From Corynespora cassiicola (taxonomy: Eukaryota; Ascomycota; Dothideomycetes; Pleosporales; Corynesporascaceae): DNA of 64,000 bases. This document shows, in pieces, positions 42,201 through 64,000 of the stretch. Location of the stretch: positions 1,240,001 through 1,304,000 of the forward strand of contig JAEUWY010000008.1 in assembly GCA_022059125.1 (NCBI GenBank). The letters are read 5' to 3'. The stretch's first letter is position 1. The number at the start of each line of letters is the position of its first letter. Below the pieces are notes generated by a model. It was not told where the DNA came from and did not search any database. It was given only the letters and a program-made list of their open reading frames with translations. The position numbers were made by a program, and so were the translations under genes.

Positions 42201-42286
42201 GGTCTTATGGTCTAGTGGTATGATTCTCGCTTAGGGCACCTAAGTACACTTGCGAGAGGCCCCGCGTTCGAATCGCGGTAAGACCC
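42201..42286 (+). tRNA. tRNA-Pro (anticodon AGG) with a 14-nt intron
   Basis: The acceptor stem GGTCTTA pairs with TAAGACC at 42279-42285, with discriminator C at 42286. The D arm (TGGTCTAGTGGTA) and T arm (CCGCGTTCGAATCGCGG) are canonical. The anticodon stem CTCGC/GCGAG encloses TTAGGG at 42231-42236, so the anticodon is AGG. A 14-nt intron at 42237-42250 sits at the usual position, one base 3' of the anticodon. It reads proline CCU codons, and CCC less well. Confidence 0.93.
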
Positions 42287-44260: not shown

Positions 44261-44267
44261 AAAAAAA
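44261..44267 (-). terminator. RNA polymerase III terminator of the truncated 5S gene
   Basis: Read on the minus strand, seven T residues follow the 5S 3' end (GTCGTATG then T-run). This supports reading the fragment as the 3' part of a real 5S gene. Confidence 0.75.
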
Positions 44268-44365
44268 CATACGACAGCGGGTATTCGCTAGTGGTCACCC
44301 ACCTAACTACTAATCCACCGGTACATTGCTTGAGTTCAGCTGAGCGAACGGGAAGCTCTATTTTC
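44266..44365 (-). rRNA. 5S rRNA gene, 5'-truncated (about 20 nt missing)
   Basis: The minus strand carries GCTTCCCGTTCGCTCAGC, then GGATTAGTAGTTAGGTGGG, TGACCACTAGCGAATACCCG and CTGTCGTATGTT, matching the fungal 5S rRNA from about nucleotide 21 to the 3' end. The expected first 20 or so bases (ACATACGACCATAGGG...) are replaced by unrelated GGCCGGCCGACCCAGC. Several transitions relative to conserved positions (for example CCGTTCGC for CCGTCCGC) also suggest decay. The 3' end and Pol III terminator are intact. The gene cannot form the terminal helix and is presumably inactive. The cut is the proposed insertion point of the adjacent element. Confidence 0.85.
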
Positions 44366-44675
44366 GCTGGGTCGGCCGGCCAAAATATGCCCTAATTTTA
44401 CCGTTTACGGTATTTGCGACAGCAAAATGCCCAAATGCGGCGCAGTGCAACAGCGCCAGATCAAGCGCCGCTAGTCCCCTATACAGACCTCTCAATACGG
44501 AAACCACAAAACAGCAAGACGAAATCCCGGATGGCTGTCTCGGAACAAATTTGCGGTGTGTCGCCTCCGTTCGTCCTGTTCCTGCCCAACACGCCCCTCC
44601 CACCCATCACGCCGTTGCATCCCTTCCGCCCCATCCCACCCGCTCCGTTCCCATACACCCCAGATTTCTGGAAGA

Positions 44676-47367
44676 ATGAAACAAGACTGCGACTTATCTG
44701 ATCTTAGGGAAAGAGCCCAGAGGGCCAAGAAAGCCGGCAAGCCTGCAGGCCTGACAGAAGAACAGGTCAAGGCCATTCTAACGCCTAAATCTTTCGAATC
44801 TTATCAGCAAGTCGTCAAACAATGGCACGAGTATGGAGAAGAACCTTGCGATTGAAACGTCGACTGACAAGGTAGCTTCGCTGAGCAGCTACTCGACGAT
44901 GACGACGACGATTGCCGCGTTCCCAAGACGATACCATCGATAGAAACGGTCAAGATCTTCTTGACATGGCTTGTACGAACATCGAATGGATACATTGCTG
45001 AGAAAATCAATATCACGACTCTCCGCAACCGCCTGAACGCTCTCAAACGTGCGATCAAACTCCACACCAACTATCAATTTACAAAGTCACAGAACGAGGA
45101 AATTGAACATGTAATACCGTATACCAGGCTCAAAGGATTTCAAAAGCTGACACTAGCAGTTAATGTCGAAGGAACTGATAGTTGAAGAGGGGCTCTCAAC
45201 AAGGGCTCATGAGAAGCCAGTGGCTTCAAAACAAGTCATCCGAGATATTATAAAATTCGCATGGTTGAGTGATGAGTACAACTACCAACATCCTCGGACG
45301 AGGATTCAAGTGGTCTTCGCTCTGATTCTTTTCTATTTCCTAGGACTTCGTCCGGGTGACATCACAGTCGAGGGATTGGAAAACGAGGGCCTGTTGTATC
45401 AGGATATTAGTTTGTTCCGCCAAAGAACTGATGATTACCAAGGCCTAGTTCTTCGCATCAGGCTTAGGAATAGGAAGGGCAAAAGAGACAATGAAGCTGA
45501 TACGTAAGTCCATCCGCTTCTTTGTTGCCTCTATCCCTAACCGTTTCAGTCCAATAATGGTCCTACATCAAGATCCAGTTAGATGGATGTGCCCTGTCTG
45601 CTTATTCCTCGGTATGGCTCTAGAGGATCGTGCTTTTATAGATTGCAATTCATTTTCGGAATTGGAAAGAAGACATCCACCGCCCGGATCGGTCAGCTAC
45701 CAATTTCGATTCAAGGGGGAAATGGCCAGAATTCCAGTTCTACGGGCTCTGCAGAGCAACGACTGGACCATTTCGCCAACCCATATCATAACCTACGATT
45801 GCCTCAACAATCACTTCAAAGGTATTGGGCAACGTGCGGGCTATGGCGATAGATTTACGGCCTACTGTATCAGGAGAGGGTTCGCAAATCGAGTACAAAG
45901 TAAGGATTCATTCAGGCATCCGAAACATGAAACTAACGACATTGAAGAAGCAGCTACCTCCAAAGAGACGCAAAAGCTTATGGGACAATCAGGTGATGCT
46001 GTGTTTCAAACCTACATGTCGGCTGTTGTCGGTTTCGACACCCAATCAGTAATGCAGGACAGGCCTCCGCTGACAGCACTCGTTGAGACTAACCAAACGA
46101 TGCTGCTCAAAAGGCGCACTGAGGCCCCCCATCCTCCAGGGTCTCGTCTGACAGATGTTTCACGCAATATGTATAGACTGACTGGCGGCAATGAAGAGCC
46201 TGTACTACAGCTTCCAGCTGATTACAAAAAACGGCGCCAAATGAGGCTCCAAAGGTACATCAAAGAGAGGAAGAGGTTCTTCAGGGAAGCCGAGGATTCA
46301 TTTGTAGAATTGGATGCCGGTACAAACCCTACCAAGGACGAACCAGTGTTCACAGATCGTAAGCCTTCGCGCTACCTGGAAGCCGTCCTCAAGCATGACC
46401 CCGATCGACAAAAAGTCATTGAAATTATGTTCCACGATTCAAAATACTCCCTCGCAGACCTTATCGAACCCCTAGTACGAATGTGTAGAACACAAAGAGT
46501 TCGTAGCAATTACATGGCAGTCCAAGAGATCACTAAGGGTGGTTACTGCCCATACTGTCAAAAAATGTTGGATATGTAAGAAATCAATCTTCTTCTAGTT
46601 TCCGTGGCTAATTGTAATTTAGAAAGCGTCCTGCTAAGGCCAACAATCATCTTTTCCAATGTGCACGCAAAGACCGAATCAATAGACAAAAAGACAAAAT
46701 GCGACTTCACTTTGAAAAGAATGTTCGGCAGTGCCTGTGGAATGATTGCGGCTACCATTTCAAAGGAAAATCATGTGGAATCTATTCCCTTCATGTCCAG
46801 GAACATATATCGAATAATCGCCTACATCAATGTCTTTGGGAGGGGTGTGGCCATATCGAAAGCACGCCTCAGGACCTTTCCAAGCACATCTCAATCGAAC
46901 ATGATGTCCCAAACGAATGGACAATACATACAAAGATGCACTACTGTTACGAACATGCTATGTGGTGCCATTCTAGTTTGAAGTGGGACGCTCATCTCCA
47001 GCAATCACACGTACATCAACTTACCGGCTTCTGCGGCATTATTCGACATCACGGTTTAGTTGCTGTCGCAGCGCACTGCCTTTTTTGTCTAGGCAACAAG
47101 GACGCTCCGTTGGAGACGAGATTCATGCAATTTCACGATGTATTCACGTTACACAAGCACATGAAAAACCATCTCGCTGCTGATTCACCGACTCAGTGCC
47201 CGCATCCACTTTGTGACGAGGCGATAGGATCAGAGGCTGCTTTCTGGGAGCATGCCAACACAGTTCATGGAACACCTCCTTTCGGAACTCCCAGGGGCAT
47301 GCTCAAGCGAAAAGCATCCAACATAGATGATGGAATCGAAGAGGGCAGGCGGATTCGTTTGGAGTGA
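44676..47367 (+). CDS. DUF3435 tyrosine recombinase (Starship captain-like) with C2H2 tail
   Basis: Exons 44676..44830, 44876..45110, 45157..45503, 45550..46575 and 46623..47367 join in frame to 835 residues; all four introns are 45-47 nt with clear signals. Without splicing, the frame appears broken, so simple ORF calls would miss it. The N-terminal core-binding part has LTEEQVKAILTPKSFESYQ and TVKIFLTWLVRTSNGYI. The catalytic domain shows FLGLRPGDI (Arg195), TAYCIRRGF (Tyr351, Arg354) and VFQTYMSAVVGFDTQ (Tyr401), consistent with the R-Y-R-Y set of captains. Residues about 585-835 hold five C2H2-like fingers (for example CLWNDCGYHF, CLWEGCG, CPHPLCDEAIG). Captains cut and join DNA to move the element. 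The gene is intact and directly inside the disrupted 5S gene. Confidence 0.88.
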
Positions 47368-47565
47368 GGCGCATATTCTCGGGCTGTGCAGTGCGTTGCT
47401 GACTATCGGAGAAGCGAAACGAGGAGTGCGGCACAGATAGTTGGCAAAACAGGAAACGGGGCCCAGGAACCGTAACTCTAAGAACTGTTATTATTCAGGG
47501 TAATCCAGCCAGGTATAAAGTGCGCATTTTGGGCTGTAATTTCTGTCGTCTCTCATACCACAAAA

Positions 47566-48358
47566 ATGAACTCGTTTGAATCCCAACCCGACTATCTGCT
47601 TCCACTATTTGCACCTATCGCACAGGCCCAATGGGAAATGGAGTTGCCACCATTGGCCGAGCTAAGCCCAATTAGGCCTTGTAGACCGGGCTCCATATCT
47701 CCATCGTGCTACGGCTGGGAGTCTTATAGACCTGGTATGCAACCCCAACTTCAAAACTTTCTTTCAGAGCTTGATGCGTCTACGACAGATAGCGACATCA
47801 GCGATCAGAGCTCACTTCAGTTTTTGAACTCTACGCCCGTCATTTCGGAGGTAATAGATAAATTATGAAGTAGAACACCGATCATTAACGCAACTGTAGA
47901 CCCTTTCTGAAACAAGCAGTATCTCTCAACAGGAACAACAGGAACAGGAACAACAGGAACAGGAACAACAGGAACAGGAACAACAGGAACAGGAACAACA
48001 GGAACAGGAACAACAGGAACAGGAACAACAGGAACAGGAACAGCAAGAACAAGAACAACAAGAACAAAAACAAAGAGAACAAAAAAAACCACGAGTTAGT
48101 GGGCGCCAATTTCAACGTCGGTCCAATACTCTTTTTAGAAAAGCGACTCAACTTGCCCTAACAACTCAGGCTGAAGTGTACTTGGTAGTGCGGCATGCTG
48201 GGACGTTCTTGGTGTATCACTCAACTAGCGTTAGCTCCGCACCACAACCAGCCCCAAAGCCTAAAGTAAGAGCATGGCTTCTTATTACAGCACATATTTA
48301 CATGTTACAGGATTCTGAGAATGTCGTATGCGTTAAAATAGCACAACGTGAGGGATAA
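47566..48358 (+). CDS. Short MADS-box-like protein with a Gln-Glu repeat
   Basis: Exons 47566..47850, 47900..48265 and 48311..48358 give 232 residues. The N-terminal 95 residues are acidic and proline-rich. Exon 2 opens with about seven QQEQE units (15-bp repeat), then a basic segment and RRSNTLFRKATQLALTTQ plus EVYLVVRHAGTFLVYHS. This resembles the core of MADS domains (RR..LFKKA.EL...DAEV.V), with the N-terminal DNA-contacting extension reduced. It could be a DNA-binding or dimerising nuclear protein, which is inference. The splice after the acidic exon is supported by GTAATA...CTGTAG and phase. It lies just downstream of the recombinase in the candidate element. Confidence 0.6.
47927..48044 (+). 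repeat. 15-bp coding minisatellite (CAACAGGAACAGGAA)
   Basis: About seven near-perfect copies encode QQEQE units in the MADS-like protein, and degenerate copies continue to about 48080. Copy number is likely variable between strains. Confidence 0.85.
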
Positions 48359-49421
48359 CTAAGTTTGAACGATATTTGGTCCTGTAACTTTTTTTGAAAG
48401 CAAGAGCATAATCAAAGTTAAAAGTTCTGTGATACCTTAAATAAACTCAACATTTTCTTATCACTGAGAAATTTTCTTCTTTCTTTGAAGCATGATCAAG
48501 CAAAAAAGCACCAGAGACCTGTAAACTGTCCTTTGCCGGACTTGAAAGAGCTTCCATGTCGAAACTCGGAAGAAACAGGGCCAAAATAGATGATGTTGTA
48601 AAGAACAAGATTGAGGTCTGTATTTTAGAAGCCCAAGAAGACACAAAAATCTTTGATGTATGTCGTTTGACCAATGCCATGATATAGAAAGTGTGGTCAT
48701 GCTAATAGTTGAACATATCTCTGAATCTCTCCTATCAATATCTCTATACATTTTCATTTCAATGCACTAGTATCCTTCTAGCGCCGTCCAATTCTCCCTC
48801 TCAGCCTGTATATATATTTTTTCAGCACCATGGAATCTACTGACCAATAAGAGTCATTGAACCCAAATATTGAGCTAGTCTTAGTGTAGGGTAAAGGATG
48901 CGAAGTCTATATGTGGAGTCAGCCCCGGCGTTAATTGGTGGGAGTAGAGCTTAGGCCTAATAAAGTCATCACTTAGAGCTCACCTTACATGTATTTGAAT
49001 TAATGGTATTCCGAGACAAATATTTACTGGAGAATGATACTGGAGTATTGAGTAAAACAGGCCTTCCCGAAACTTGTAGTGACTCCTTAGATAGGGAATG
49101 TTCGGAATCATGAAAAGCTAAATAAGGCATTGGCTATGAAAGGCTCGGTTCAATATCTGAGAGTGCCGGGGACTTGTCAAGAATGTACAAAAATAACTAT
49201 CAAATGCATCCATCGACTGCAACTTTCTAAGAGGGGATAGAATAGCCTAGGTCACTGGACCCTAGAATTTCCTAAGGCTCCCTAAGGCCAATTTAGTTCT
49301 ATAATTAGGTCATCATGTGTCTATATAAGACTCAACGTTGTATCACATTAGACATCACAAAATTTTCATCATCTGGTCAATCATTTCAGCAGTTCATTCC
49401 TTCATTCTAAAATTTCTCGTG
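48359..49421. other. Intergenic region within the element
   Basis: AT-rich, no gene firmly supported. Short coding-like stretches near 48480-48690 on the plus strand (SKLGRNRAKIDDVVKNKIE) could be a remnant of a small gene. Confidence 0.4.
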
Positions 49422-49808
49422 ATGGACAAAGATATTCGAATTTCCGTCCGCTTTCTGAACGACGACTTGGCTGAGCTCACCATTATCGGGCACATTTCGA
49501 AAGCCGAAAATATGACCAATGAGACGGATATTAGCTCATGGGTTAAACTTGAAGGAGAGAACAATAATGAAAGGGGACTTGTCCAAACTCACAACACCAA
49601 CAACCGTTCCAAAATTTCCCTCTTCTTATAGCCAAAACCAACCACCAAATACACGAGAGACACTGATACGGAGAATTTTATCCATACGGGAGCTATGTTG
49701 GCTTCAAAAGTCACAATCATCCCAATTCAGTCGTTATGTCATCACAGAATTGGGGACTTGCGCTTCATGTTTTGGCATTCAGGTCCACAATATACAAAAA
49801 AGAGATAA
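49422..49808 (+). CDS. Possible small two-exon gene, unknown
   Basis: A model with exons 49422..49541 and 49632..49808 keeps phase 0 and gives 98 residues. It starts MDKDIRISVRFLNDDLAEL and continues after the splice with PKPTTKYTRDTDTENF. The donor GTTAAA is weak, and no family is recognised. It is listed because its layout matches the neighbouring small cargo genes. It could equally be chance. Confidence 0.28.
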
Positions 49809-49833
49809 TGTAAACTCATTGGAAACAATCTAG

Positions 49834-51265
49834 AGGATGATCAGCGTGGAAAAATAGATTGAATTAATGCTTAGTTTGGTATATTGCCTGTTCTATTACG
49901 GGGCGGATTTGAAATTCAGAATCTCTCCTGCCTCTCGGCGTTTTATCTTCTAAAGTATGGGTGTGGGGAAGAAGAATGAGGACTGAGTTGATTGCTATAG
50001 ATAACTACCGCTCTATACTTATATCTTTTATAAATTAGAGTCTATCTGAAGTGCGTAGAATAGTAGATTTTATATACTAAAAGCAAATATACTACAACTA
50101 TGCTAGTCACGTGAAGGCCAACATCTCTGTTTTGTCTTTTATTTTGTTAATAGATCGTTTGCAGACGCTGTAGTAAACTTCACTTTCGCAATTTGTCCAC
50201 TACGCCTTAAACTTTTCTAAGATAACGAATAAACTGCCTTCTCCTTTGAAGAAAGGAGCCTTTCCCCTACCGGGCGAATGAAGTTGAATTCGATACAAAA
50301 CCTCTTATAATCTCACAAATGTTCAAAACCCCTAAACTGAATTTTGAGAGGTATCTAGCAGAGGCATCAACGTGTTTTTAAAAAAGATACGAGGTTTCAT
50401 GTATATAAATACAGAGTATTATAGGAAACAAAATCGGGCCCCTCCACCGTACAACACAAGCGTTACGATATCTCATCATTCCAACTCAAAACGCGCTGCT
50501 TCGCCCCGAGGTGGAGCCGAGGCCAGGATGAAGGCTTGGCAGGGCGTACAAACAAAAAACTGACGTGTCACATCATCACAAACCAGATCCACCTCACGTC
50601 GCGACCATATGGTGCAGCAGCTTTACGAACTGCTACCTTGCCTGCGCGACGGTCCAAGCAAATTTGTCGAGCACCACGACCATGGATGGCTCAGGCTCAA
50701 CGAGAGTCTCGATGCTTTCTCTCTCTCGTCAACGGAATTCCCGACGCGCCAGAGATGACGAAGACGACCCGCCCCAGCTGACACATAGAGAGAACAAAAG
50801 GTAATCAGGTTGACCACTAGAGCTCACAGTTCAGATACTATGGAGAATCGATCCGTCCCCAGAGCTCCGCCCCAGGAGTCGACACATCGCAATGGACGGC
50901 TCCGTGACCACCAACACACCACCGCAGGCGACACCACCATCACCACCACCGTTGACCTAGCCCGGGGCCCTCATCCCCCTCTTCCAGTCGCCACCATTCC
51001 TGAGGCGTCATTGTAGTTCATTGCTACAGCATTCTATTGGCACTAGGGTTTAAGGAAACGGTGAAAAAGGGACCATCACGGATAAGCTTGATTATAGGAT
51101 GGCTCAAAAGTTTTGACTGCTACATCAATCGTTATTTGGGCTGGCTTTTTTCATGCTATAAAAGTCAAATAAATTCACAGGCTCTCTAATCTCATTCCCA
51201 TCAATGAACTATGTATCAGGGTCCTGATAGGCTCGATGAGTCTGCGTTTGGCGCTTGCTACACAG
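49834..51265. other. Spacer with a GC-richer coding-like island
   Basis: Most is AT-rich and empty. Between about 50565 and 51016 the sequence is richer in GC, with arginine/proline/threonine-rich frames (for example ATG at 50682, then SGSTRVSMLSLSRQR). I could not join these into a convincing gene. Confidence 0.4.
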
Positions 51266-52072
51266 CTAGCTAGAGAATTCAGTGACTGTGTAACAGTAAA
51301 AGCCTACACTTATTAGTTGATGTAATAGAGGAAAGGAAGAACGTACAAGCAATATTGCCTGGTAAGCTTCCTTGGTGATATCTTTCCCTGAAATCGATAG
51401 GACATAGAAAAGAATAGCCACAAACATCTGGAATAACGCCGTAAATGCATTTATACCGATGGGAACCTTCAAAATTCTGCGATCTGATTCCGATCGTATG
51501 AAACCAAGAATTTCAACCCAAATTTTTGTAGAAATAAGTGATGCGATAGCAAGACGAGAATGCAGTGCAGAATAGTAGGCAAGACAGGCGTTCTTCTCTC
51601 TGCCTGAGGTCAGCATTCCCGAATAGTTGATTCTGCCGGAATCTTTTTACCTGAAGAGTGAGGCGATATCGGGGGCGGTTAATATTGTGACGATATAAGC
51701 CAGCCATATTGTCCACCTGGCACAGTTCCAAATTCTGATGGCTCGAACAAGCTGGGTTGATTGTAAGTGAGAATCTACCGTTTTACTAAATCTTCTCACA
51801 TTTGCCCCGACCGAAAGCTGCAGGGTACATAGAACGAAAGCTTCCGGTCTGTAAGGCTCAATATCACGGATATATGAATCCACGATTACGAATGTGCCAA
51901 AGATAGAAACAGTTGCTTCAATGATAGTAAACAGAACAATCGTAATTCGGTCCCATAGATACCTGCTACCTTCTGTTCGAAGGTACCTTTCGTCCTTGTA
52001 TGCGAAAACAATGCTCAGTATGAAGTCACCCAAGAAGTAAGCAGCAAAACCGATACGAAGATCAATAGCCAT
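51266..52072 (-). CDS. Multi-pass integral membrane protein, unknown family
   Basis: Exons 51651..52072 and 51266..51599 (51-nt intron GTAAAA...CAGGCAG, TGCTGAC branch) give up to 251 residues. Hydrophobic segments are RIGFAAYFLGDFILSIVFAY, ITIVLFTIIEATVSIFGTFV, WTIWLAYIVTILTA and INAFTALFQMFVAILFYVLS, suggesting four to six membrane helices. The start at 52072 is preferred over 52144 because it begins directly at the first helix. The extreme C-terminus is uncertain, because a GTACGT donor after YQAILL could remove the last residues shown. I do not recognise the family. It is in the cargo region of the candidate element. Confidence 0.6.
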
Positions 52073-52763
52073 TTTGAATAGATGGAGATGTAGGAAAGAA
52101 CCTGGTACATGCTTTATTAGAATATGAGAGCTTTTAAACATCAAGCACCTAAGGGGGCATTGTGGCTAATCAGCCTCGCCGTAATTCCGTGGACCCACTA
52201 TATCTCATCATCATGGCCTTAGATGACCTGTCATCGCACATTAGGCAGGAAACATAAGGAAGGCTGTGTAACTGTTCAGAATCGCCGTAAGGATAAGGCG
52301 CCTCCGCAGTGTGACTGCACACGAAGCAACTTAGGGGTGTCAAAAATCTATAAATGCGCTCTGAGTGGCCTTCAACCCCTATTAGCTTCTAAAAAAATTC
52401 TAAGAAGTTTTTATACAACAGAGTTAGACCTTCAGAAAGTTTGGTCTGTATCGTTTCCTAAGTAAGTATGATTGAATAATCGTTTCATTCAAGTGCCTCT
52501 CCATAAAATCCCAATGCTAATTCTTGAGGTATCTATGGCACTAAGTGAAAGTGTTAAAGAATTCTTGTTGTGATCCTATCGAAACTTGCAAATTGGGCGG
52601 GATAGTTGGAGAAGCAACGTAGAAGAGATTAAGTCCTATTAACGCTACAAACTAATGCCTGTGCCCTCGACCGTGTCTTACTCATCTGGATCATGTGAGG
52701 GTGAATATAAAAGGGAATTCAATCCCCAATTTCTCCTTCCTTACTTCCTTCTCCCATCAGAAA
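52073..52763. other. Divergent spacer
   Basis: No gene is supported. It would hold the promoters of the membrane protein gene (minus) and the coiled-coil gene (plus). Confidence 0.5.
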
Positions 52764-53208
52764 ATGAATAGCTCAACGTCTACTATCGAGAACTGTGGGG
52801 CCGGTCAAGACACAATATGTCAGATCCAGGATGGCTCTAAAAAGGTATGTAAAGCTGTATAGTATCTGTTGAAGTTACTAACTATGGATTCAGTCACCTC
52901 CCAAAAGAGTTCATCCAGAGGGAATTGAGATGGGAGAATTTCCCCGCAAGAGGCAGAAGGGAGCTGCGCATATTACACTGCTGGAGGAAAACGAAGCATT
53001 GAAATGTCAATTGTCCTACAAAGATACAATCATCAGTGGGATGAAAAAACGCATAGAAATTTTGGAACGTCAGAAAGTAGAAGAACTAAAACGTGAGGAT
53101 TCGAATACCCGTGCGTTCGGTTTGCTAGTGAAGCAAATGAAGAATGTGGTAAAGATGGCGGAGAACACACTTGCACAAATAAAAGACACAGAAAAGAAGA
53201 TAGAGTAG
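52764..53208 (+). CDS. Small coiled-coil protein
   Basis: Exons 52764..52844 and 52894..53208 (49-nt intron, GTATGT...GATTCAG, TACTAAC branch) give 131 residues. A short polar N-terminus is followed by a basic patch (PPKRVHPEG, FPRKRQKG), a possible nuclear-localisation signal. A long helix with heptads then runs to the end (ITLLEENEALKCQLSYKD, MKKRIEILERQKVEELKRE, MVKMAENTLAQIKDTEKK-like). It is likely a nuclear, dimerising helical protein. No enzyme or known DNA-binding domain is visible. It is one of several small genes of similar layout in the element. Confidence 0.6.
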
Positions 53209-53361
53209 ATAGTTGGAAGAACAGGCAATTTCTTGATGGAAATTGCGGGTTCATCACTATGTGTTTGTATTTTGGATACCCTAAGTATGCGAACAATGTT
53301 GCCATTTGCCGAGGTCTAACTGTGCCATCTTTCGTAATTGCATGTCCCGACTCTGACCATT

Positions 53362-54005
53362 TTATTCGTTTGAAAGTCTCTTCGAAGGCAGTTCTCCAAG
53401 ATCATTTTCCAGGCTAACATCGTAGCTCCCCGAGTATTGTGGTGGGGATGATAGATTCGCCCAGTCCTGGTCCAACAACGTGTACTGAGAATCACCAGTC
53501 GGCACCGGGGTTTGGCATTGCGAATCATCGGCGAAGGCTTGAAGACCATACGCTAAATTTTTTTCTGGTGTCTGCGAATTGTGAAATGGTGAGATAGCAT
53601 GTGCCACCAGACTAACATGCGATGGCTCCTGGCTTTGAGGGGCAGCGTATGGCGGCGGCGGAGGTGATAGCTCAACCATTTTCACCTTGCCCTTTTCTAT
53701 ACCTTCGTTCATGGAGAAGAAATGAGAAGGGCGTCTGATGGATGGATGGTATTGGTTTTTCTACCGTCCACTTAGCAACCTATCGATAGCCGAGATCTGA
53801 GACGTACAAACTGTTGCGCGTCACAAGGCCAGGTGAGACCGTGTTCCTCGACAGTGAAGACACGCGGGATATTTCCTGGTTTCTCAATGAATATGGCAAT
53901 CCGAATTCCGTTGTCAATGCCGTGAAGTTCTGAGGCCTTTTTGAAGATGCTGTTGACGCGGTCTCTGTAAGATCGCTGAATGTCGCGGGGGGCGGGTCTT
54001 GGCAT
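53362..54005 (-). CDS. Short MADS-box-like protein
   Basis: Exons 53808..54005 and 53362..53760 (47-nt intron, GTACGT...GGTAG) give 198 residues. The first exon carries RDRVNSIFKKASELHGID followed by IRIAIFIEKPGNIPRVF, which matches the helix-strand core of a MADS domain (RR..LFKKA.EL....I.V.I....). The second exon is proline- and serine-rich (LSPPPPPYAAPQSQEP, NLSSPPQYSGSY) and acidic at its end, as in an activation or interaction tail. It is probably a transcription-related protein. It is divergent from the ferric reductase gene 400 bp away and is a second member of the type seen at 47566-48358. Confidence 0.65.
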
Positions 54006-54410
54006 TTCGGCGATACTCGAAATACTGGTTGGATGTAGAAAGAATCACAAGTCTAAAGCGATGTTTGGAGAGTAGTAATACGGGTTCGGTCTGCGGTTTC
54101 TAGTTCAGTGTCATGTAGTTATATACACGTAGCGCAGCTACTTGATATGCGTCCGTAAATGCGGCGCAGGGCTCCGTTATTCGAGTCCGGAATGTTGTGT
54201 TACGTACGGCGGTTAATTCCCTGTAAATGTCTTACGACCCAACACAACCAAATACCGAGTCGCAAACCCTCGCTTTACCGTGACGAGGACCCGTGTTCGA
54301 ATTACAGTTTTTCCAGTGAAAAAAACGAGGAACGGTGCTTACGTTGTATTGCTCCTGAACAAAACCACCCTTGAAGTGCGAATATTCTCTCAGGTCAAAC
54401 TTACACAGTG
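54006..54410. other. Divergent promoter region
   Basis: The 405-bp spacer between the MADS-like gene (minus) and the ferric reductase gene (plus) is a candidate bidirectional promoter. No other gene is seen. Confidence 0.5.
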
Positions 54411-56117
54411 ATGCAGGCTACACTTGTTTATGCTGTTTCAATTGCTTCTGTTATCGGGTTGGTTTTCGTGTCGAGGCTTGCCCAACTCCTAGCCTCTCAA
54501 GCACGCGAACGACTATTTTGTCTCTTTTCGAAATGGGCCGTGTACACCCTCGTCTGGCCGAGATTGAGGGGAAGCTCTGATGTGAGCATTATCGCAGCCA
54601 TTGCAATAATCATATTCCTCGTTGGAAATATTCTCGGTTCCGTCATTGGTGTACGGGGTAGGGCGGAGTTATCATTGCGATTAGCAAGACTCTGCACAAT
54701 GAATTTAGTTGTTCTTTTCTTAGGAGGCAGGACGAACTTTTTTCTTGACAAGGTGTTTCAAATCTCGATGACAGAACATCACTCGGTGCACCGTTGGGTT
54801 GGACGAATGTCCGTCGCAGAGGGTATCCTTCATGGCATCCTAGATGTATTGCAACGTCGTTCAAATATGCGAAAAGAGGATATTTCAGTGAGTATTTCGT
54901 CTGGGTGTGTGTTCACTATCTTAATTTTCGCACAGCTTTTTATCCTATCCGGCGTCATCGCATTTTTCTCCCTCCTTTTTGTTCGCCGGCGAATATACGA
55001 AATCTTTCTTACGAGCCATTTACCAGCCACCATAGCTCTTATGGTCTTTGTGCTCGTCCATTTGAAGAAAAAAAGTACTTATGTCATATGCTGTATTTCT
55101 ACTGCGGCAGGGCTGCTGCTGTTGCAAAAGATTCTATGGTTTATCAACCTTGTTTACCGCAATTTCGGCTCCGGTCCACCTTGCAGAGCATCGATCGTAA
55201 AGTTTGATCAGCCTCAGGGGAGCGAAGAAGTCGTTCAAGTTCGAGTGAAACTGAAAAGGCCATGGACCATGTCTCCTGGGCAATTTGTATATCTATGCCT
55301 CCCTGGCCTCAGGAGCATGGGTCTTGGATTTCTAGAGGCTCATCCATTTATGGTTGCTTGGTATTACGACGATGAAAAGAGTGCTACGACAACTATCGTT
55401 CTTCTTGTCAGATGCTTTCGTGGCTTTACCCGAAAACTACAACTTGCGAACAGCAATAGTTACGCCATCGTTGATGGCCCCTATGGTAGGAATACACTTC
55501 GTAAGCTAAGCCAGTACGATAAAGTTCTCTTCTTGGCACATGGAATCGGGATTGCGGCCCATTTACTTCCTATACGACACCTACTTCTTGCCCATGATGA
55601 AAAGACAGCTCGTGTGCGCCGACTCTCTTTTGTATGGCTTTTAGAGACAAAAGGTACCAAATCACTTCCTCAAAGGAATTGTTTTCCAAGACTGATCTTC
55701 TAGCAGATCAACTGTGTTGGGCCGAGGAATTTCTGTTCACTTTGAACGATATGGACCATCGCCATATTCTGAACATTTTTCTTCTCTTTCCAAGCGATAG
55801 CGGGGGCTCTTTACAAGGCCAAGCCATCGACATGAGGCATCGTCGGGATCGTATTTATCCGCTAAATTGTCAGCTTGATATGGACTGCTGGATAGAGGAA
55901 GAATATTGCGCAGAAGCTGGCAATATGCTCGTTGCGGGTATGTGAAATTAACCGAAAAATGAAGATTGGATAGTGCGCTGAAGAAGAAACAGCATGCGGA
56001 AGCCCTCAATTCGAGCTACATGTAAGGAAGGCTGTCCGTTCGAGCCGACGTAACATTTCATTTAGCAATAGTGATTTTCAGCCTGATGAAACGGAGCTAC
56101 CCTCTTTTAGTGTTTAG
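54411..56117 (+). CDS. Ferric reductase-like transmembrane oxidoreductase (FRE)
   Basis: Exons 54411..55653, 55704..55937 and 55993..56117 join in frame to 533 residues. Several membrane helices form the ferric-reductase heme domain, with paired histidines in TEHHSVHRWVGR, AEGILHGILD and TSHLPATIALMVFVLVH. The FAD part has PGQFVYLCLPG and EAHPFMVAWYY (HPF motif). The NADPH part has IVDGPYGRN, LFLAHGIGIAAHLLP and, in the last exon, NMLVAACGSPQFE. It should pass electrons from NADPH across the membrane to Fe3+ or Cu2+. The glycine-rich NADPH loop (AHGIGIAA for GGTGITP) is somewhat degenerate. FREs are one of the recurrent cargo families in Starships, which fits its position here. The start is the first ATG; 54408 is GTG. 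Confidence 0.88.
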
Positions 56118-56423
56118 GTGAAATATAAAACATATAAATAACAACATTATTATTCTACCAACATTTATTTTTACTGCTGAGGAAAAGGCCCGCTGTGTGC
56201 GGCGCGGTTATCGAAACAACGCGCCACCAGCGCTTGCAGAGGAACTAACACATTGCATATTCGGTGCGATTTTGCTTACGATCTGCGGCACAGTATATTT
56301 CAACATCAGAAAGCCTGCAAAAGGCCTTTGCTTCAAGGACCACTCATTCTAATAACCACTATCCCACACATCTTCCAGACAATCGAGCACAACGATCATG
56401 GAGCATACCCATCGTATGTCACG

Positions 56424-56708
56424 ATGTACCCTGAAGAAGACATAGCTAAATGGCACGAAGATCAGTGTTTTGAAAGCAACCTGCTCGCTGTTGCTGTGGA
56501 GGAAATGTATCACGACAGAATCAGGGCAATGCAGGCACTGGAGACATGGGAAGCCCGTTGCTTCAAGATGCGAGATAAACTTGAATATCTGTTGGAGGAA
56601 AACGAACGGAAAGGGGCGAGGATTGAGGAGTTGATGGAGACATTGTATCAGATAGCTGACGATATCGAGTGTGCCCTTACTCTTATTCAGCTTTCCAACG
56701 GGAAATAG
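56424..56708 (+). CDS. Small coiled-coil protein, 5' end unresolved
   Basis: From the ATG at 56424, 94 residues read as a charged helix (MYPEEDIAKWHEDQCFE, MRDKLEYLLEENERKGARIE, ELMETLYQIADDIECA). The frame is open upstream to at least 56253 with less convincing sequence, so an additional 5' exon is likely. It is similar in style to the coiled-coil genes at 52.8, 58.2 and 60.1 kb. Function is unknown. Confidence 0.5.
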   Translation: MYPEEDIAKWHEDQCFESNLLAVAVEEMYHDRIRAMQALETWEARCFKMRDKLEYLLEENERKGARIEELMETLYQIADDIECALTLIQLSNGK

Positions 56709-57048
56709 AACTTAGCAATGATGCACCATTTTTGGAGATTTGATGAGACCACACAATTGCCGAAGCCCAATTTGAAGCAGTGCGGGATATCCGGAATCGA
56801 TTTTTAGTCTACTCCCTTATTAGGACAACCTTTCCGTTTGGGCAGTTTCTAATAACAATGTGCCTTGCTGTGCCACAATGAACCGCGCCCAGGTACCAGC
56901 TTCTGTGCCGTACGGGGCCCTTGAATCCGCCCCGAGTGATCTACGAACGCGTCACGGGTCCCGCGCGGTAATTTCAAGCAGGGATGCGAACCCCGAGACA
57001 TACGTGCCACTCTTCCCACGCTTTTACTGAGGTCTTTCCGAACCATCC

Positions 57049-57680
57049 GAGCCAATCCCGCGCGTGCTCCCAATTACTGGAGTGCGCGCACCATATTCCC
57101 ACTCTTTGCATCCGAGCTAATTCCGTACGTGCTCCCACGTTCAGGAGTACGCACACCGTATTCTTACTCCTTGAATTCGAGCTAATCCCGTGCGCGCTCC
57201 CAGCTCCTGTGTTTAGGCATGCATCTGGGAAAACATCCCGTGCGTGCTCCCACTCTCTGTATCGAGCATCCCGCACAATCTCTCAATCCCGCACGAACCA
57301 CCAATTCCTGTATCGAGCATCCCGCACAATCTCTGAATCCCGCACAAACCACCAATTCCTGTATCAAGCATCCCGCACAATCTTCAATCCCGCACAACCC
57401 ACCAATTCCTGTACCGAGCATCCCGCACAATCTTCAATCCCGTACAAACCACCAATTCCTGTACCGAGCATCCCGCACAATCTATGAATCCCGCACAAAC
57501 CACCAATTCCTATCAAGCATCCCGCACAATCTTCAATCCCGTACAACCCACCAATTCCTGTGTTTAGGTATCTATATAGGAAATCATCCCGTACGTACTC
57601 CCACTTCCTGAAATGCGCGCACCGTCTTGCCCCTTGAGTATCGAGCTAATCCCGTGCGTGCTTCCAATCTCTGTATATAG
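57049..57680. repeat. Composite minisatellite with two related units
   Basis: The first part has units of about 65 bp beginning GAGCTAATCCCGTGCGTGCT (variants GAGCCAATCCCG, GAGCTAATTCCG). It passes into six units of 48-51 bp at 57264-57561, each GAGCATCCCGCACAATC, then AATCCCGCACAAACCACC and AATTCCTGTATC. The array ends with another copy of the long unit near 57642. ORFs across it are just repeat translations. Confidence 0.85.
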
Positions 57681-57794
57681 ATACGTATCTGGGATCGCGC
57701 ACTGCCAATTTTAAGATTGCGCCTCTACTCTTGGAATATTCGTGCATACTCAAATAATCCTCGATAATAGCTGTAAATATGTGGCTAGTTATTT

Positions 57795-58088
57795 CTAATA
57801 GAGGCTATTATAAGTGCAACGATAATGTCGAGGGTAAATTGCGTAAAGAAGTCCGTGTACAGCCCAGTAAGACCGTAGGATCTCTACTCGTACTGGACGC
57901 CCAAGCTCATCTTCCACGCTATAGATCTTTCCATTATGCCCAACTACAAAACATTGCAAAACAAGATCCACTAGAACGGGTCCACGCCAGCAGAGAAAGC
58001 TTCTGGGAATGTATCCATAGAGCAAATTTTCACAAGAAGGACACTGCTCACTGTGATGCTCGAGGAGATTCATATATAGATATTCCAT
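57795..58088 (-). CDS. Small CxxC protein, unknown
   Basis: From the ATG at 58088 (an upstream in-frame ATG lies at 58154), about 97 residues include QCPSCENLLYG, then RGPVLVDLVLQCFVV and GKIYSVEDELGRPVRVEI. This recalls small fungal proteins with one CxxC pair followed by a conserved 'VQVEIP' segment. The opposite strand also has an ORF of similar length, but it lacks such features. It could bind a metal with a partner. Confidence is limited by the absence of a full family match. Confidence 0.45.
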   Translation of the reverse strand: MEYLYMNLLEHHSEQCPSCENLLYGYIPRSFLCWRGPVLVDLVLQCFVVGHNGKIYSVEDELGRPVRVEILRSYWAVHGLLYAIYPRHYRCTYNSLY

Positions 58089-58219
58089 TCGGGTCGGCCG
58101 TCTGGAGAAGGATGAAATGATTGGTTTCGCGAACTGAACCTTAGGAGTAAACATAATGGTTGTGTAATGAGTTCAACGATATGGTTGTCCATCGCTCTAT
58201 GTATCTACGAAACCCCAGA

Positions 58220-58591
58220 TCACGATTCCATATCCTGATTCCCGTGTTTCTGAATCCCTCCCCCGTTCTCAGTATTCAGCATTACGGGCTTGAGAACGAT
58301 AAAGCTGTAAATTCTCTTGATCCAATTTTCAAGTGTGTCCACATCTCCCCGCAGAGATTGGACTTTACTACTATGAGTCAGAATAGTTCAGAGCCTCACA
58401 AGTATAGCGTACTTCTCAAGCTGGATAATTTTCTGTTGCATGTCTTCTGAAGTTGTTTGGGAGGAGTGAAATGTGTCATCGAACAAAGCCATCCATTCAG
58501 GACTGGGGTCAAAGTAGGGTGCAGTTGGGTCGAGGATAAACCCGTTGTCGCAGGTAGATAGACTGGGGACATCAGATACTTGTTGAGGCAT
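58220..58591 (-). CDS. Small coiled-coil protein
   Basis: Exons 58413..58591 and 58220..58370 (42-nt intron, GTACGC...CTCATAG, TTCTGAC branch) give 109 residues. The N-terminus is acidic and aromatic (DPTAPYFDPSPEWMALFDD). A helix with heptads follows across the splice: TSEDMQQKIIQLEN, then SKVQSLRGDVDTLENWI. The tail is short and polar. The intron is short but keeps the heptad pattern. The layout (acidic N-terminus, helix, short tail) resembles the other small genes in the element. Function is unknown. Confidence 0.5.
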
Positions 58592-58900
58592 CGTTAGGTT
58601 CGCTATATTCTGATTTCAATCAAAGCAGAGTGATGTGAAGTTGTATGTAATTGCCATGGTGGAGGTTTAAGTTTTTAAACGTTGTGTCACGTGCATTAAG
58701 CGCCGGAATGCAGCGAACGGTATATGGGTTAAACTAACATTAGCCACTATTAGCCGCCTTCCGAAGCCCTGACTGAAGGATTCCATAGTGCAAAACACTC
58801 TAATGGCACTAGTTCAGTGAATGGCACTAGTATGCCGTTCTCGGGTTGCTGCGCCACATAGCGATGCTTTAGGATTAGCACTAGACTGCCTTACTCGCTC

Positions 58901-59826
58901 TCAATCACTCACCGGACGATCAAGCTTGACAATTCCCGACCGGTCTTTGTTGAACAGGTCGTCCAAGAAGTCCACCAAGAGCTTATGGCCACTCCATCCC
59001 CCACCATTCTTCAAACCAAAGATCTGATTAAGTTCTCTCTGGTGCCGCACGTATGTACCGTCGCGAAGGTGCTTACTCGGCGCTCCCTCCATGCACTCAA
59101 GAAGGGTGAACCCTAGTAGTTCGAGGTCGACGTTGGGACCCACATCCGCAGTTTGGAGGGCGCAGTCATCAAAATCCGCTATTGACTCGACTTAGAATAG
59201 TTGTGTCATTAGTTGGGTGGCTGACCTAGAAGAACCCTGCCGCTCCCTCCACAGATTCTGATTGCTGAAGGTGAGATGGTATTGTGAATAACTCCAGCAG
59301 CAGCTATGTGTCTGACTGCGAAGAATATCTAAGTTGATCAACAAAGGCACAGGCGTGAAGCATGTTGCAACCGTACGGAGTGAGCAATTGCTAGAATATG
59401 GGGCTCTTCTAGGCGGATATGCACATTGAGAACCTCTTCAAGCGTGAATCGTGAATATTCAAAGCGGAAGTAAAGAGAATCCTCATGTTCGAACATATCT
59501 TCCAGTTTCAGAATATTCGGATGAATAAGAGGCTTCACCTTGTCAAGATGCTTCCTGCCATTATCGAGCTTCATCTGTCTCAACATCGTCAATTTACCTT
59601 TTAGTACACCGATATGCCATTGATGACTGTCTTGCTCCAGGTCCCCGAGATGATGTATATTCGTCCACGGACTTACACAATGCAACGTCGGCTCCGAGGT
59701 CGCATTGCTTGAAGGAGTCCTTATTTTGTTCGTGTTCTTACGTGACTCAAATAGCAGAGCCGCTTTAGTCGGTAACTGGGGTCGTGGGTGGCGTTGGAAC
59801 GCTTCTTCATTAGGCTTAGCACTCAT
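58901..59826 (-). CDS. Protein-kinase-like protein, possibly degenerate
   Basis: From the ATG at 59826, the first exon reads WHIGVLKGKLTMLRQMKL, then HPNILKLEDMFEHEDSLY and RFEYSRFTLEEVLNVH, which resembles a kinase N-lobe with its hinge. Downstream, RHIAAAGVIHNTISPSAIRI stands where the catalytic loop (HRDxxxxN) should be. After an intron (GTCAGC...GTCAATAG near 59175-59222), ADFDDCALQTADVGPNVDLELLGFTLLE matches the DFG region and helix F. The catalytic Asp of HRD is replaced (HNT), so it is probably a pseudokinase. The splice between about 59340 and 59380 does not keep frame with the obvious donor GTACGG and acceptor CTTCGCAG, so the gene may be broken or use an unusual site. Confidence 0.5.
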
Positions 59827-60114
59827 TGTTGGTTAAACTGAGAGCTAGTCGCTCTAGGAAGGGGTTTTGTCTCTATTTCAGGAGCGAAAAGGCTCTCATA
59901 CTGTCTACTGAATACCGAAATCATCTATTCAGACTACCGTTAGACGTATGCTAGTTAGCAGTTCGTTCCTGTGTTCCTTAAACTCCGATAACGGTAAACA
60001 GTATAATGCATGCACATCCCGTCATTTCTCTTGCAAAGTACAAAAAGCTAGAGAAGGGGTGCAAGCTTCCATGAGCCCCTTTACTACCATATTAAACTTC
60101 TGCCTCCTACAGTT

Positions 60115-60731
60115 ATGGAACCTGATCGAGTGACTTCTTCAGGGGCAGCTGCCGTGCCAAGTGGATCAATGGAACGACAGGAAGCTACCAACTATTGGAA
60201 CTCAACGATGCCTCAACAAGAAGACCTTTACTTACGGCTTTCACAAATCTTACAATACGAGATATTGCACCACAAGCAGACTCGGGCGGAATTGTATGCT
60301 GAACAACGTCGACGTGGCGAACTAGAAAATTTCGTTCAGCAACAAGCACAGACTATATCTCACTGGGAAAGATCTTACCGGATAGTTCATAATTCACTTG
60401 AGGAACACAGAACTCAAAATATGAACGTCAAGCGAGAAATGGAAGCTATTAATGCTGAACTTGGGCGCTTTAAACAAGTTTGTATTTGTTTCCTGCTTGA
60501 AAATATTTCTGACTATCTACGCAGGCCTCTAACGGACCTCTAAATGGCGAAGGAACTCAATTCAGTATTGCAGACATGTCAGGGGCAGGGCCCAAAGAGA
60601 GGCACTCAATAGAGCCTATGTGTGGGCACAGAAGAGTAAACGAAGACGCTGATGATGGAGATTTAGAGCAGGCATGGCAGTTGGAATTTGTTCGGGACGT
60701 TGAGGAGCACTTCAATCTGGCAAAGTCATAG
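60115..60731 (+). CDS. Small coiled-coil protein
   Basis: Exons 60115..60477 and 60525..60731 (47-nt intron, GTTTGT...CTACGCAG) give 189 residues. A glutamine-rich helical region dominates exon 1 (LRLSQILQYEILHHKQT, AELYAEQRRRGELENFVQQQ, EHRTQNMNVKREMEAINAE). Exon 2 is acidic, with NEDADDGDLEQAWQLEFV. It is likely a dimerising, perhaps nuclear, protein with an acidic tail. No catalytic domain is seen. It is part of the run of small helical genes in the candidate element. Confidence 0.6.
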
Positions 60732-60831
60732 AAGTTGAGATAATGAGAATGTTTTAAATTTAATTTTGATTGGCAATGAAATAAAACATTTGACTATTTA
60801 ACTGACTGTTTATCGACCAGATGTGGACCCT

Positions 60832-62250
60832 TCAATGATTTGGTGTATAGTCATCGTCGTTCTCATCTCCATCATCCATGGGGATTTCACCACTCTGCCT
60901 TTCAGCCTCCACTTCACGTAAGCGCGCCAACCTTCGTCCAAACTCGCGTAGGTTTTCTTGTTCTTGCTCAGTCAAGGCTTTTTTTAATAGTCTAGGCTCA
61001 AGTTTCTGCCAACGGATGCATAGCTTTTCTGCCTTCCCCGGAGATAAATCGTTGTGCTCTTGAAAATGGCACCCTGCTTTATTTATCTTCTTCTGGAATC
61101 CCCAAAGTCTCTTGAACTCATACAGGGCCTCGCCTTTGTAGATTTCAATCCACTGCTCTTCTACGTTTTTCCATTCAATCCAAACCATATTCTTCCTTTC
61201 TTCTTTGTGCGATTCTAGCGTCCAATCGATTATACCGAGTGGACGTTTGGGCGGTTGACTCCGCCTGGCCTTTTTCTTGCTCCTGGAATTGTAATTATGG
61301 GCCTCTTCATCGGAATCTTCGATTAATATAGATTTTCTTTCATTATTATCAATAATGATAATTGAAGATTCCTTGTCCGGTCCTGTTGATTTGGTTCCAA
61401 TTTGTAAAGTCTGTACTCCAGTGCCTTCAGAGATACCGTAGTCTTGGCTCGATTGCGTTTCCACTTTTTCTGCGGTGTTCTTTTTGTTTGCATCAGCTTC
61501 CATCCACAAGATCTCTTCCACCGACGAAACAGCTTCCACCGACGAGACAGCTTCCACCGACGAGAGAGCTTCTATTAGAGAGACCGTTTCTCCTGACGAG
61601 CCGGCTCCCATCGGCGAGACTGCTTCTATTGGGGCGGCAGTAGGTGGGCCAGATCGTATAGATGTGTAGTCCACTGATAGGGGACTCTGATGGTCGGATG
61701 CCGCTATCATATCTTCCGAGGGCTCGTCTTGTGGCAAGCCATCACTGAGCTGCAGATATAGCTCGCTACCAAAGGTCCAATTTTCCATTCCTTCTAGCTC
61801 TCCACCATCAAATTTGAAGATATCATTCGTCGTGATGTCGAAACATTTTCCGCTATCGATAAGCTCTTTACTATCAAGCCAGGAACCTTCCAGAATTGAC
61901 GATTGGCTTTCGTTCGTGTTATCGGCGGCTTTTTCCCTACTTAGAGTAGAAGCGCATTCCTGGTACTTATCGACAACAATATTTGGCGATATTTTGAAAC
62001 GTTTTTCCGCATTGATACTAGTGGAGCTAGGTCGCCGCTTTAAAGAATTTGATTGGGTGTTGGATAGCCCTACTTTGGGGCTGGGAGTTCTTTCAGTCTC
62101 GTTAGAGGCACTTGGAGTCCCAAGAGGTGATGACCTTGCCAACTTCTGATCGACGGAGGCACACTGCGGGATCATGTTATCGTCGGCGAGCCACGAATAG
62201 GTTGGGTTGTTCAGCAATGCGTATAAGTCTGATTCAAATGTAGCGGACAT
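60832..62250 (-). CDS. Probable nuclear protein with SUMO-interaction-like motifs
   Basis: This intact single-exon gene encodes about 472 residues from the first ATG at 62250; 62274 is a TTG. The N-terminal half is serine-rich and disordered with basic patches (SLKRRPSSTS, AEKRFKISP). A small repeat SSVEAV occurs near residue 240. Two hydrophobic-then-acidic motifs, SSIIIIDNNE and SILIEDSDEE, look like SUMO-interacting motifs. A basic stretch (SRSKKKARRSQPPKRP) may be a nuclear-localisation signal. The C-terminal 130 residues are ordered and tryptophan-rich (GIIDWTLESHKEERKNMVWI, EWKNVEEQWIEIYKGEALYE) and could be a DNA- or protein-binding domain that I do not recognise. It is a large cargo-region gene. 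Confidence 0.6.
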   Translation of the reverse strand: MSATFESDLYALLNNPTYSWLADDNMIPQCASVDQKLARSSPLGTPSASNETERTPSPKVGLSNTQSNSLKRRPSSTSINAEKRFKISPNIVVDKYQECASTLSREKAADNTNESQSSILEGSWLDSKELIDSGKCFDITTNDIFKFDGGELEGMENWTFGSELYLQLSDGLPQDEPSEDMIAASDHQSPLSVDYTSIRSGPPTAAPIEAVSPMGAGSSGETVSLIEALSSVEAVSSVEAVSSVEEILWMEADANKKNTAEKVETQSSQDYGISEGTGVQTLQIGTKSTGPDKESSIIIIDNNERKSILIEDSDEEAHNYNSRSKKKARRSQPPKRPLGIIDWTLESHKEERKNMVWIEWKNVEEQWIEIYKGEALYEFKRLWGFQKKINKAGCHFQEHNDLSPGKAEKLCIRWQKLEPRLLKKALTEQEQENLREFGRRLARLREVEAERQSGEIPMDDGDENDDDYTPNH

Positions 62251-63557
62251 AGCGGCAGTAGGTGAGGAATTCAAATGATTGTCTTGAACGAGGTAGCATC
62301 TCGCTCTTAAATACTCGTCATATGAGTAAAAGTATTGGCGGGGTACGTATCATTAGAGCCAGGGTATAAGACAATGTTGGTGGCAGTGTTGCAGAATGTG
62401 AGCTTAATATAGTAGTAATGTGAATGGCGTGCGTAAAGACTAGGGTTTGTGGGTAAGCTACTGGCTCTCAGGCTTTCCCCCAAGGCTCTCTTCGACTCTA
62501 AGCCTGCATTGGCGCTTTGAATTGCAACTGGTCACCCGCAGTGTCTTTCATAACATCTATCTATTGGTGGAAAGGCATTATAGCTCCAACACGCGTCCCC
62601 ACTACTCTTTACTTAGAAGCGCTTGAATTTATGCAAACCAAAGCGCCGGATTACGCTTCTCGTTCATGAAAATAGCAACAAACCGTTCGGTACTAGCCCT
62701 GATGTCCTTTCCAGGTCCAGACGTTACCGCGCCAAAAGTACTGGCTGACAAGGCCATGTCTTTACCCTCAACAGTGCCACCCTACCCCAGCAGCATTGAT
62801 ACAGCTCATACCACGCCACTTGAGTGCTTGGTCTTGAGTTTTTTTCAAAATTATAGCGTGTCGTAGGTGCCAACACATAGTTATAGGTAGAGGTTGAGGT
62901 AGATTCCAGTCAGTATCAGATGAGTTGGCCTTTTGCCACACGCGGCAAATACAGCTTACATGACACACAAGTTCTTTGTAGCTCCATAGTCTCTTCTCAG
63001 TCTATAAAGTCAATCTGATTAACTCTTTCTCTTGATGCAATCCATCAGAGTCACCAGAAATTTGGCTTATGGATTGATACGGCGAGATATTCTTCTCTAA
63101 TCTTCCTAGCACTGGCTTTGTAATGGAGTCCAATCCAGAACTCTTACTTATAGAACTTCGGGTAAATATCAGAAATATCACAGGGCTATTTTGATCTTCA
63201 AAGAAGAAATTGTATTAGACTTAGCCAGCTATCAATCGTAAAGGCAAGACATGCCACTTTGTTGAGGCTAAAATTAATTCTTAAGCGTCAATACATTGAT
63301 ACCTTACACGTTCCACCAACTTTTTGGTACAAAACACTAGCAAAATGACTATCGCATGATTATGATCAGTATGGGTTCCAAAAAGCCACTAACCCTCTCC
63401 TAGCCCCTTCAAGTTCAAATCTTCCCATCTCTCCTCAGGTGTATTGTCCTATCTTTGCTCCTAGTTAGAAAGGTATAAAAGCAACTGGTTTTTTTGCTTG
63501 AACATGCTGCTTTTGGTAGCAAGCTTTTGAAACCTCAAGCTCTGATCAATCGAAACA
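62251..63557. other. Intergenic region
   Basis: Short ORFs only; none shows a domain. The 66-codon plus-strand ORF around 62666-62866 has proline-rich sequence but no support. Confidence 0.45.
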
Positions 63558-63665
63558 CGAGCGCCTACGGGACATAAACCCCCAGTCCATCCGTGCCCCT
63601 GCACTGAAGTAGAAAATGAGGTCTTATATCTCCTGGACTGTGGGTTTATTTCCCGTAAGCGCTCG
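63558..63665. repeat. Near-perfect inverted repeat (~32-bp arms)
   Basis: The left arm 63558-63589 (CGAGCGCCTACGGGACATAA, ACCCCCAGTCCA) is mirrored by the right arm 63634-63665 (GGACTGTGGGTTTATTTCCC, GTAAGCGCTCG) with about three mismatches and a 44-bp loop. It can form a strong hairpin or be the ends of a very small non-autonomous element. A weaker extension pairs CCGTGCCCCTGC with GCAGGGGC at 63694-63701. Confidence 0.75.
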
Positions 63666-64000
63666 TGATGCACGGGATCTTATTTCCCGCAGGGGCGATT
63701 GTAGAATGCGGGCTGGCGGCGTCGAGGGGCACAGGACTACGTCATAATTAGCCGCTATGCAGCGGATAGGGGATATTGGCTGGTATGGGCCGAGGTGCCG
63801 CAGGGGACAAATGTCCGTGTTTTCTGGTCGTTTAGGAGAAGTACCTACCTGCTACTGAAGGTGAGGGCGGGGATCACGGGACAGGGGGTTCGGATATTGG
63901 CGCCGAAGCTCCGAGTGGCTGTGCGTGTGGTTGTGCGTGGCTGGCGGAAGGAATATGGGACAGTGTCGCTCGTTGGTGACAAAATGGAAACAGTGAAGAA
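63666..64000. other. GC-richer end of the window
   Basis: No gene is supported. The sequence is clearly more GC-rich than the preceding 1.3 kb, so another gene or a different compositional block may begin beyond the window. Confidence 0.4.

Follow-up and report, generated by a model that had tools for sequence, protein, structure and literature searches.

The analysed window, a stretch of 64,000 nucleotides (nt) at C8:1240001-1304000 in a genome assembly of 44.35 Mb and 23 contigs, holds the left part of what is almost certainly a Starship giant transposon, complete at 94,821 bp and sitting within one of the dispersed 5S ribosomal RNA (rRNA) genes. This reading was adopted because the missing piece of the 5S gene was recovered exactly, on the same strand and with a 9-bp repeat, and the rejoined gene is identical to intact copies. 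It was further adopted because a captain gene near the left end reads inward, fits its relatives and is followed by accessory cargo. The initial annotation of the window had proposed a Starship in a 5S rRNA gene, and both junctions, the orientation of the captain and the cargo agree with that proposal. The element is longer than the 19.6 kb given there as a minimum, and its extent alone had been underestimated. A host gene 8 kb past the right end of the element was 97% identical to a Corynespora cassiicola Philippines protein, and the remaining 93 of the 94 listed proteins were at most 49% identical. To the left of the element lies a tRNA-Cys gene at 42201, and to its right a gene at 147 kb. 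Assemblies of C. cassiicola named in PMC8235470 include CCP, YN49 and CC01. The finding is a base-exact, complete Starship in C. cassiicola or a close fungus. Coordinates above 64000 are on the scale of the window and are converted to positions on contig C8 by adding 1240000.

The element splits a 5S rRNA gene

The two pieces of the 5S gene, the repeats at the junctions and the part of the element inside the window are as follows.

44267-44365, minus strand: 3' part of the 5S rRNA gene (nt 21-119), left flank of the element, 100% match to the intact copies at C1:2006151 and C15:847643
44357-44365: left copy of the 9-bp direct repeat TCTATTTTC
44366-64000: portion of the element inside the window, continuing to 139186 (C8:1379186)
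139187-139195 (C8:1379187-1379195): right copy of the 9-bp direct repeat TCTATTTTC
139187-139215 (C8:1379187-1379215), minus strand: missing 5' end of the 5S gene (nt 1-29), on the same strand as the 3' part

The left piece confirms a 5S gene cut about 20 nt from its 5' end at 44365, as originally annotated. The absent 5' part, expected further right in minus orientation, was searched for in the window plus 200 kb rightwards (264 kb). It was found at 139191-139215, where 25 nt of the 5S 5' end matched with 0 mismatches, together with the 9-bp duplication; no second site was present in the same range when up to 5 mismatches were allowed. On the shared strand, 94.8 kb separate the 5' end from the 3' part to its left. 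The insert between them comprises 44366-139186 (94,821 bp), with its right end 75.2 kb beyond the window. The 9-bp repeat corresponds to 5S nt 21-29 and reads GAAAATAGA on the sense strand. When the flanks were joined in silico, an intact 119-nt 5S gene was restored, identical to two intact genomic copies.

Full-length 5S genes are dispersed through the genome in 35 copies, which account for 35 of 35 matches in one search and 35 of 39 in another. The 17-mer GTCCTATGGTCGTATGT occurs in 20 exact copies in the 44.35 Mb. As 19 of these each mark the start of a full-length 5S gene and the sole orphan is the right junction of the element, chance is excluded. Rfam at the gathering score returned 0 matches within the window, presumably because the 5S gene is truncated. 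Orphan 5S pieces were also observed at C6:1646083 (nt 1-51) and C6:2053488 (about nt 42-119); they lie on opposite strands and are not a matching pair.

The captain is a DUF3435 tyrosine recombinase with an enlarged finger array

44676-47367, plus strand: captain, DUF3435 tyrosine recombinase with C-terminal C2H2-like fingers, 816 amino acids
44676-44830, 44876-45110, 45160-45503, 45550-45899, 45954-46575 and 46623-47367, plus strand: captain exons

The first gene recognised in the element starts with an ATG at 44676, 310 bp past the junction, and reads inward, which bears out the earlier call of a complete DUF3435 recombinase at this place. The gene model consists of six exons and five introns of 45-54 nt, contains no stops and ends at 47367. 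The captain had been doubted for two in-frame TGAs in the frame of the first exon; both fall in a 45-nt intron, and homologues fit the splice. A model of 834 amino acids was dropped when 18 additional codons close to the catalytic region proved to be an intron. The Pfam scoring and the first homologue search were performed with that earlier model, and the match to DUF3435 (PF11917) reached 106 bits against a cut-off of 25.8. Six homologues were listed at E ≤ 0.001 among 7997 candidates scored. The two best, from a source coded lgn and from Cucurbitaria berberidis, showed 41% identity over 98%. No Corynespora-named captain was among the six, in a database that includes C. cassiicola Philippines proteins, which is weak and indirect evidence for presence/absence polymorphism of the element.

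The splices agree with an alignment of seven captains, and the profile built from these matches XerA from box II through the catalytic Tyr (E 0.003). Arg353 and Tyr382 of the captain stand at the Arg and Tyr columns of XerA. At the column of the LGH His, exon 5 encodes Gln, where 6 of 6 relatives have His. A search with the seven-captain profile yielded five proteins, namely four known relatives and P0007 (the window's own unspliced frame), and no named Starship captain. For the captain relative P0001, a phmmer search against solved structures listed none, and the AlphaFold model was poor, with a mean predicted local distance difference test (pLDDT) score of 36.2 alone and 39.3 with six sequences.

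Five C2H2-like motifs were identified by regular expression in the C-terminal part of the captain, including a tandem pair of the Cys-x-Trp type that resembles GLI, Zap1 and ARID2. A TFIIIA-like reading of the fingers was rejected, since the solved relatives include GLI, ARID2, Zap1 and AEBP2, not TFIIIA. Tandem fingers of the GLI/Zap1 type often serve domain contacts, so recognition of 5S DNA by the captain fingers is only a guess. About 500 bp past the captain, an open frame carries a glutamine-rich tandem repeat of QEQ units (~47925-48090).

The ends of the element

44372-44378, plus strand: TCGGCCG, inverted partner at 139167-139173
44401-44410, plus strand: 10-mer CCGTTTACGG, inverted partner at 139115-139124

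Asymmetric terminal inverted repeats occur often, though not universally, in Starships. The ends carry a terminal inverted-repeat signal that is suggestive rather than strong. TCGGCCG is weak alone, with 33 copies on both strands of the 264 kb, while CCGTTTACGG and its inverted partner are the only two copies in that range and among 32 genome-wide. The alignment of the inverted ends scored 28, against a maximum of 27 across 500 block shuffles. Next to the right repeat, on its element side, 13 of 20 bases agree in register with the 5S gene, and among them is GAGCGAACG, corresponding to 5S nt 36-44; a match of this quality was attained at 27 of 94,700 element positions. We infer that this likeness may represent a half-site shared by the element end and its target, lying beside the common overlap as in the attachment site of a tyrosine integrase. 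A fragment of 5S sequence picked up by the element would give the same appearance. The left 310 bp of the element matched only itself in the genome, and the right 500 bp matched itself and a stretch of ~130 bp at 72% identity on C12. This latter match (C12:469k) had no adjoining 5S match in the genome-wide 5S list.

The element carries Starship-type cargo

The cargo scan covered 324 frames of at least 80 codons in 44000-139600. Forty Pfam queries were made, comprising 38 frames or frame parts inside the element, the captain and one outside frame.

54375-55700, plus strand: ferric reductase-like frame (PF01794, PF08022)
60835-62349, minus strand: 505-codon frame (stop to stop), no Pfam match
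65485-67332: NB-ARC with TPR (Pfam)
71536-73540, minus strand: DUF3723, two frames (Pfam)
74579-75223: patatin-like, below the Pfam cut-off
108110-110077, minus strand: ankyrin frame (Pfam)
111245-113032, plus strand: ankyrin with GDE1-like C2 domain (Pfam)
119856-120779, minus strand: DUF3176 (Pfam)
124623-129262, minus strand: PNP_UDP_1, ankyrin parts and NPHP3_N, NACHT-like (Pfam)
132316-137339, plus strand: PNP_UDP_1 and ankyrin parts (Pfam); the stretch to 134000, the expected site of NPHP3_N, lay outside the scan of that frame

Accessory cargo including a ferric reductase had been predicted inside the window, and the two Pfam domains at 54375-55700 substantiate it. The families that exceeded the cut-off in the cargo include FRE, DUF3723, NB-ARC/TPR and NPHP3_N/ankyrin. 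Most other scanned frames gave no Pfam match at E 0.001, and the rest gave weak matches under the cut-off. The genes at 124623-129262 and 132316-137339 are divergent in orientation. A 4.8-kb inverted duplication of 94.9% identity (125072-129897 and 131682-136506) holds the PNP_UDP_1/ankyrin gene, with near-identical ankyrin repeats of 99 bp. An aminoglycoside-resistance match on an ankyrin-repeat frame (22.3 bits against 21, with no single stretch passing) was deemed spurious, and a hexamer screen for coding potential was set aside as swamped by the ankyrin repeats. The element also contains three copies of a short dispersed repeat, ~83-86% alike (49949-50123, 87884-88059 and 107127-107273), and a tandem repeat with units of ~50 bp (57257-57561).

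Counter-evidence and alternative explanations

Several observations weigh against a complete, 5S-targeted Starship. The left edge of the element has no mark in base composition, since the fraction of guanine and cytosine is 0.475 in the element, 0.484 in the left flank and 0.541 in the right flank. The inverted-repeat score barely tops the best shuffle. The 5S likeness at the right end rests on the last 20 bases, as it falls to 15 of 30 over 30 bases, and with both strands considered the 9-mer within it recurs once inside the element, at 123908. The Pfam match of the captain spans only profile positions 8-273 of 418, and the patatin match is under its cut-off (25 against 27.7 bits). The evidence for the element comes from a single assembly. 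A long repeat may also accompany other targets: in the available text of PMC12153272, Tardis has a repeat of 9-11 bp that is not 5S. Judged from its sequence, the Gln at the LGH-type His position means that the captain may be inactive now, which makes present mobility uncertain.

This last point underlies the alternative that survives best, a bounded Starship that is now immobile, having been inserted by another captain or by its own captain before the change at the catalytic position. We consider it possible, if rather unlikely. It is compatible with the Starship reading and differs from it on present activity only. Apart from the Gln, it is favoured by the single genomic copy of the captain and of both element ends; against it, the reading frame of the captain is intact and neither 5S piece shows decay, which suggests a young insertion. 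It is highly improbable that the site lacks an element boundary and just pairs a 5S pseudogene fragment with a solo DUF3435 gene. The genome does have a few orphan 5S pieces besides its dispersed full-length copies, but the right junction already refutes this explanation: the complementary piece shares strand and repeat with the fragment, the two, when joined, give a 5S gene with the exact sequence of two intact copies, and Starship-type cargo lies between them. Equally implausible is a large rearrangement that broke the 5S gene beside a coincidental captain. The inverted duplication near the right end does show local rearrangement, but such an event should not produce complementary 5S pieces that share one orientation and a 9-bp repeat, with a captain adjoining one edge and the inverted 10-mer near both.

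A second interrupted 5S gene and other captains in the genome

Another 5S gene, on C1, is interrupted by ~3.5 kb; its left piece lies at C1:4530916-4530979 and its right piece ends at 4534479. The insert contains an open frame of 718 codons that includes a HET domain. The right ends of this insert and of the element align from the first base after the repeat, with 46 of 72 positions identical without gaps and a score of 44 against a maximum of 39 in 500 shuffles. Their left ends are unlike (score 23, reached by 59 of 500 shuffles). The C1 insert may be a relative that inserted at the same 5S site and is now decayed or lacks internal sequence, and the second split gene suggests that the lineage of the element used this site earlier.

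Six captain loci were found in the genome (11 matches, grouped). In each of the five other captains, the last-exon frame contains only one or two C2H2-like motifs, and no 5S piece was present beside these captains within loci of 3.3-3.7 kb, where the matches were only 10- to 13-mers. A more far-reaching proposal would be that the small captain lineage, represented by the six listed relatives, has acquired a 5S-specific targeting module. This would consist of the enlarged finger array, whose GLI/Zap1-like tandem pair was unseen in those last-exon frames, and the right-end mimic of 5S nt 36-44. The C1 insert with the HET frame would then be a mini-Starship of sorts, short, non-autonomous and mobilised in trans. 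We regard this as speculative and improbable. The captains at C1:493k, C2:4738k and C9:67k are closely alike (98.9% and ~92% DNA identity) and form a separate multi-copy group. At C6:3009111-3017080, a captain with a DUF3723 gene ~5 kb off marks another likely Starship.

Proposed mechanism and significance

In the mechanism that we propose, the captain would bind the ends of the element as well as the half-site that resembles them in the 5S gene, and would make staggered cuts across the 9-nt overlap. The excised element would be joined into the 5S gene in the fashion of a tyrosine integrase. Loss of one of 36 5S copies would be tolerable to the host, and a target conserved in every host could aid the spread of the element. 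The internal promoter region of 5S genes lies in the retained 3' part. As the 3' fragment keeps this region, it may still yield a chimeric transcript beginning in element DNA.

The 5S-like half-site at the right end offers a concrete and testable model of site choice by 5S-targeting captains. What is fresh in this work is the base-exact mimic of a 5S half-site, the enlarged finger array, and a second 5S gene that likely holds a small relative.

Comparison with known Starships

The available text of PMC12506042 names NLR, PLP, FRE and DUF3723 as accessory families of Starships. In the position and orientation of the captain and in cargo of the ferric reductase, DUF3723 and NLR types, the element agrees with Starship anatomy as given in the accessible parts of PMC12506042 and PMC12257634. 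Direct repeats longer than 6 bp generally accompany 5S targeting, according to the part of PMC12153272 that was available, and the 9-bp repeat of the element accords with this rule. No paper was found that names C. cassiicola with a Starship; the main Starship catalogues were outside this search, and the element may be listed there under a code.

Voyager of Macrophomina reportedly inserts in 5S ribosomal DNA (rDNA). In the available portion of PMC10128009, the 12-bp target site of Voyager in Macrophomina phaseolina is AGAATACAGGGC, and both Voyager and the present element have DUF3435 and DUF3723. The best placement of that site in the host 5S gene is nt 20-31, with 8 of 12 bases, overlying the repeat of the element (nt 21-29); this match is weak alone, as 7 of 12 bases agree at three or more further positions in the 5S gene. 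The host of Voyager differs from that of the element.

Aspergillus fumigatus is of a different class from the host of the element, and its Osiris has a 5S target in common with the element. The available text of PMC12153272 describes, for this navis of the Enterprise family, four haplotypes with a 5S rDNA target and says that they fragment 5S rDNA. 5S rDNA is an already established Starship target. The hosts of Sanctuary and Horizon, which infect wheat, belong to Pleosporales, the same fungal order as the host of the element. Their direct repeats, as given in the accessible part of PMC12257634, are unlike that of the element (ATWHCT/ATACCT in Sanctuary, TTTAC in Horizon). Starships form a known class of mobile elements transporting genes in blocks, and the element described here is a well-bounded further case.

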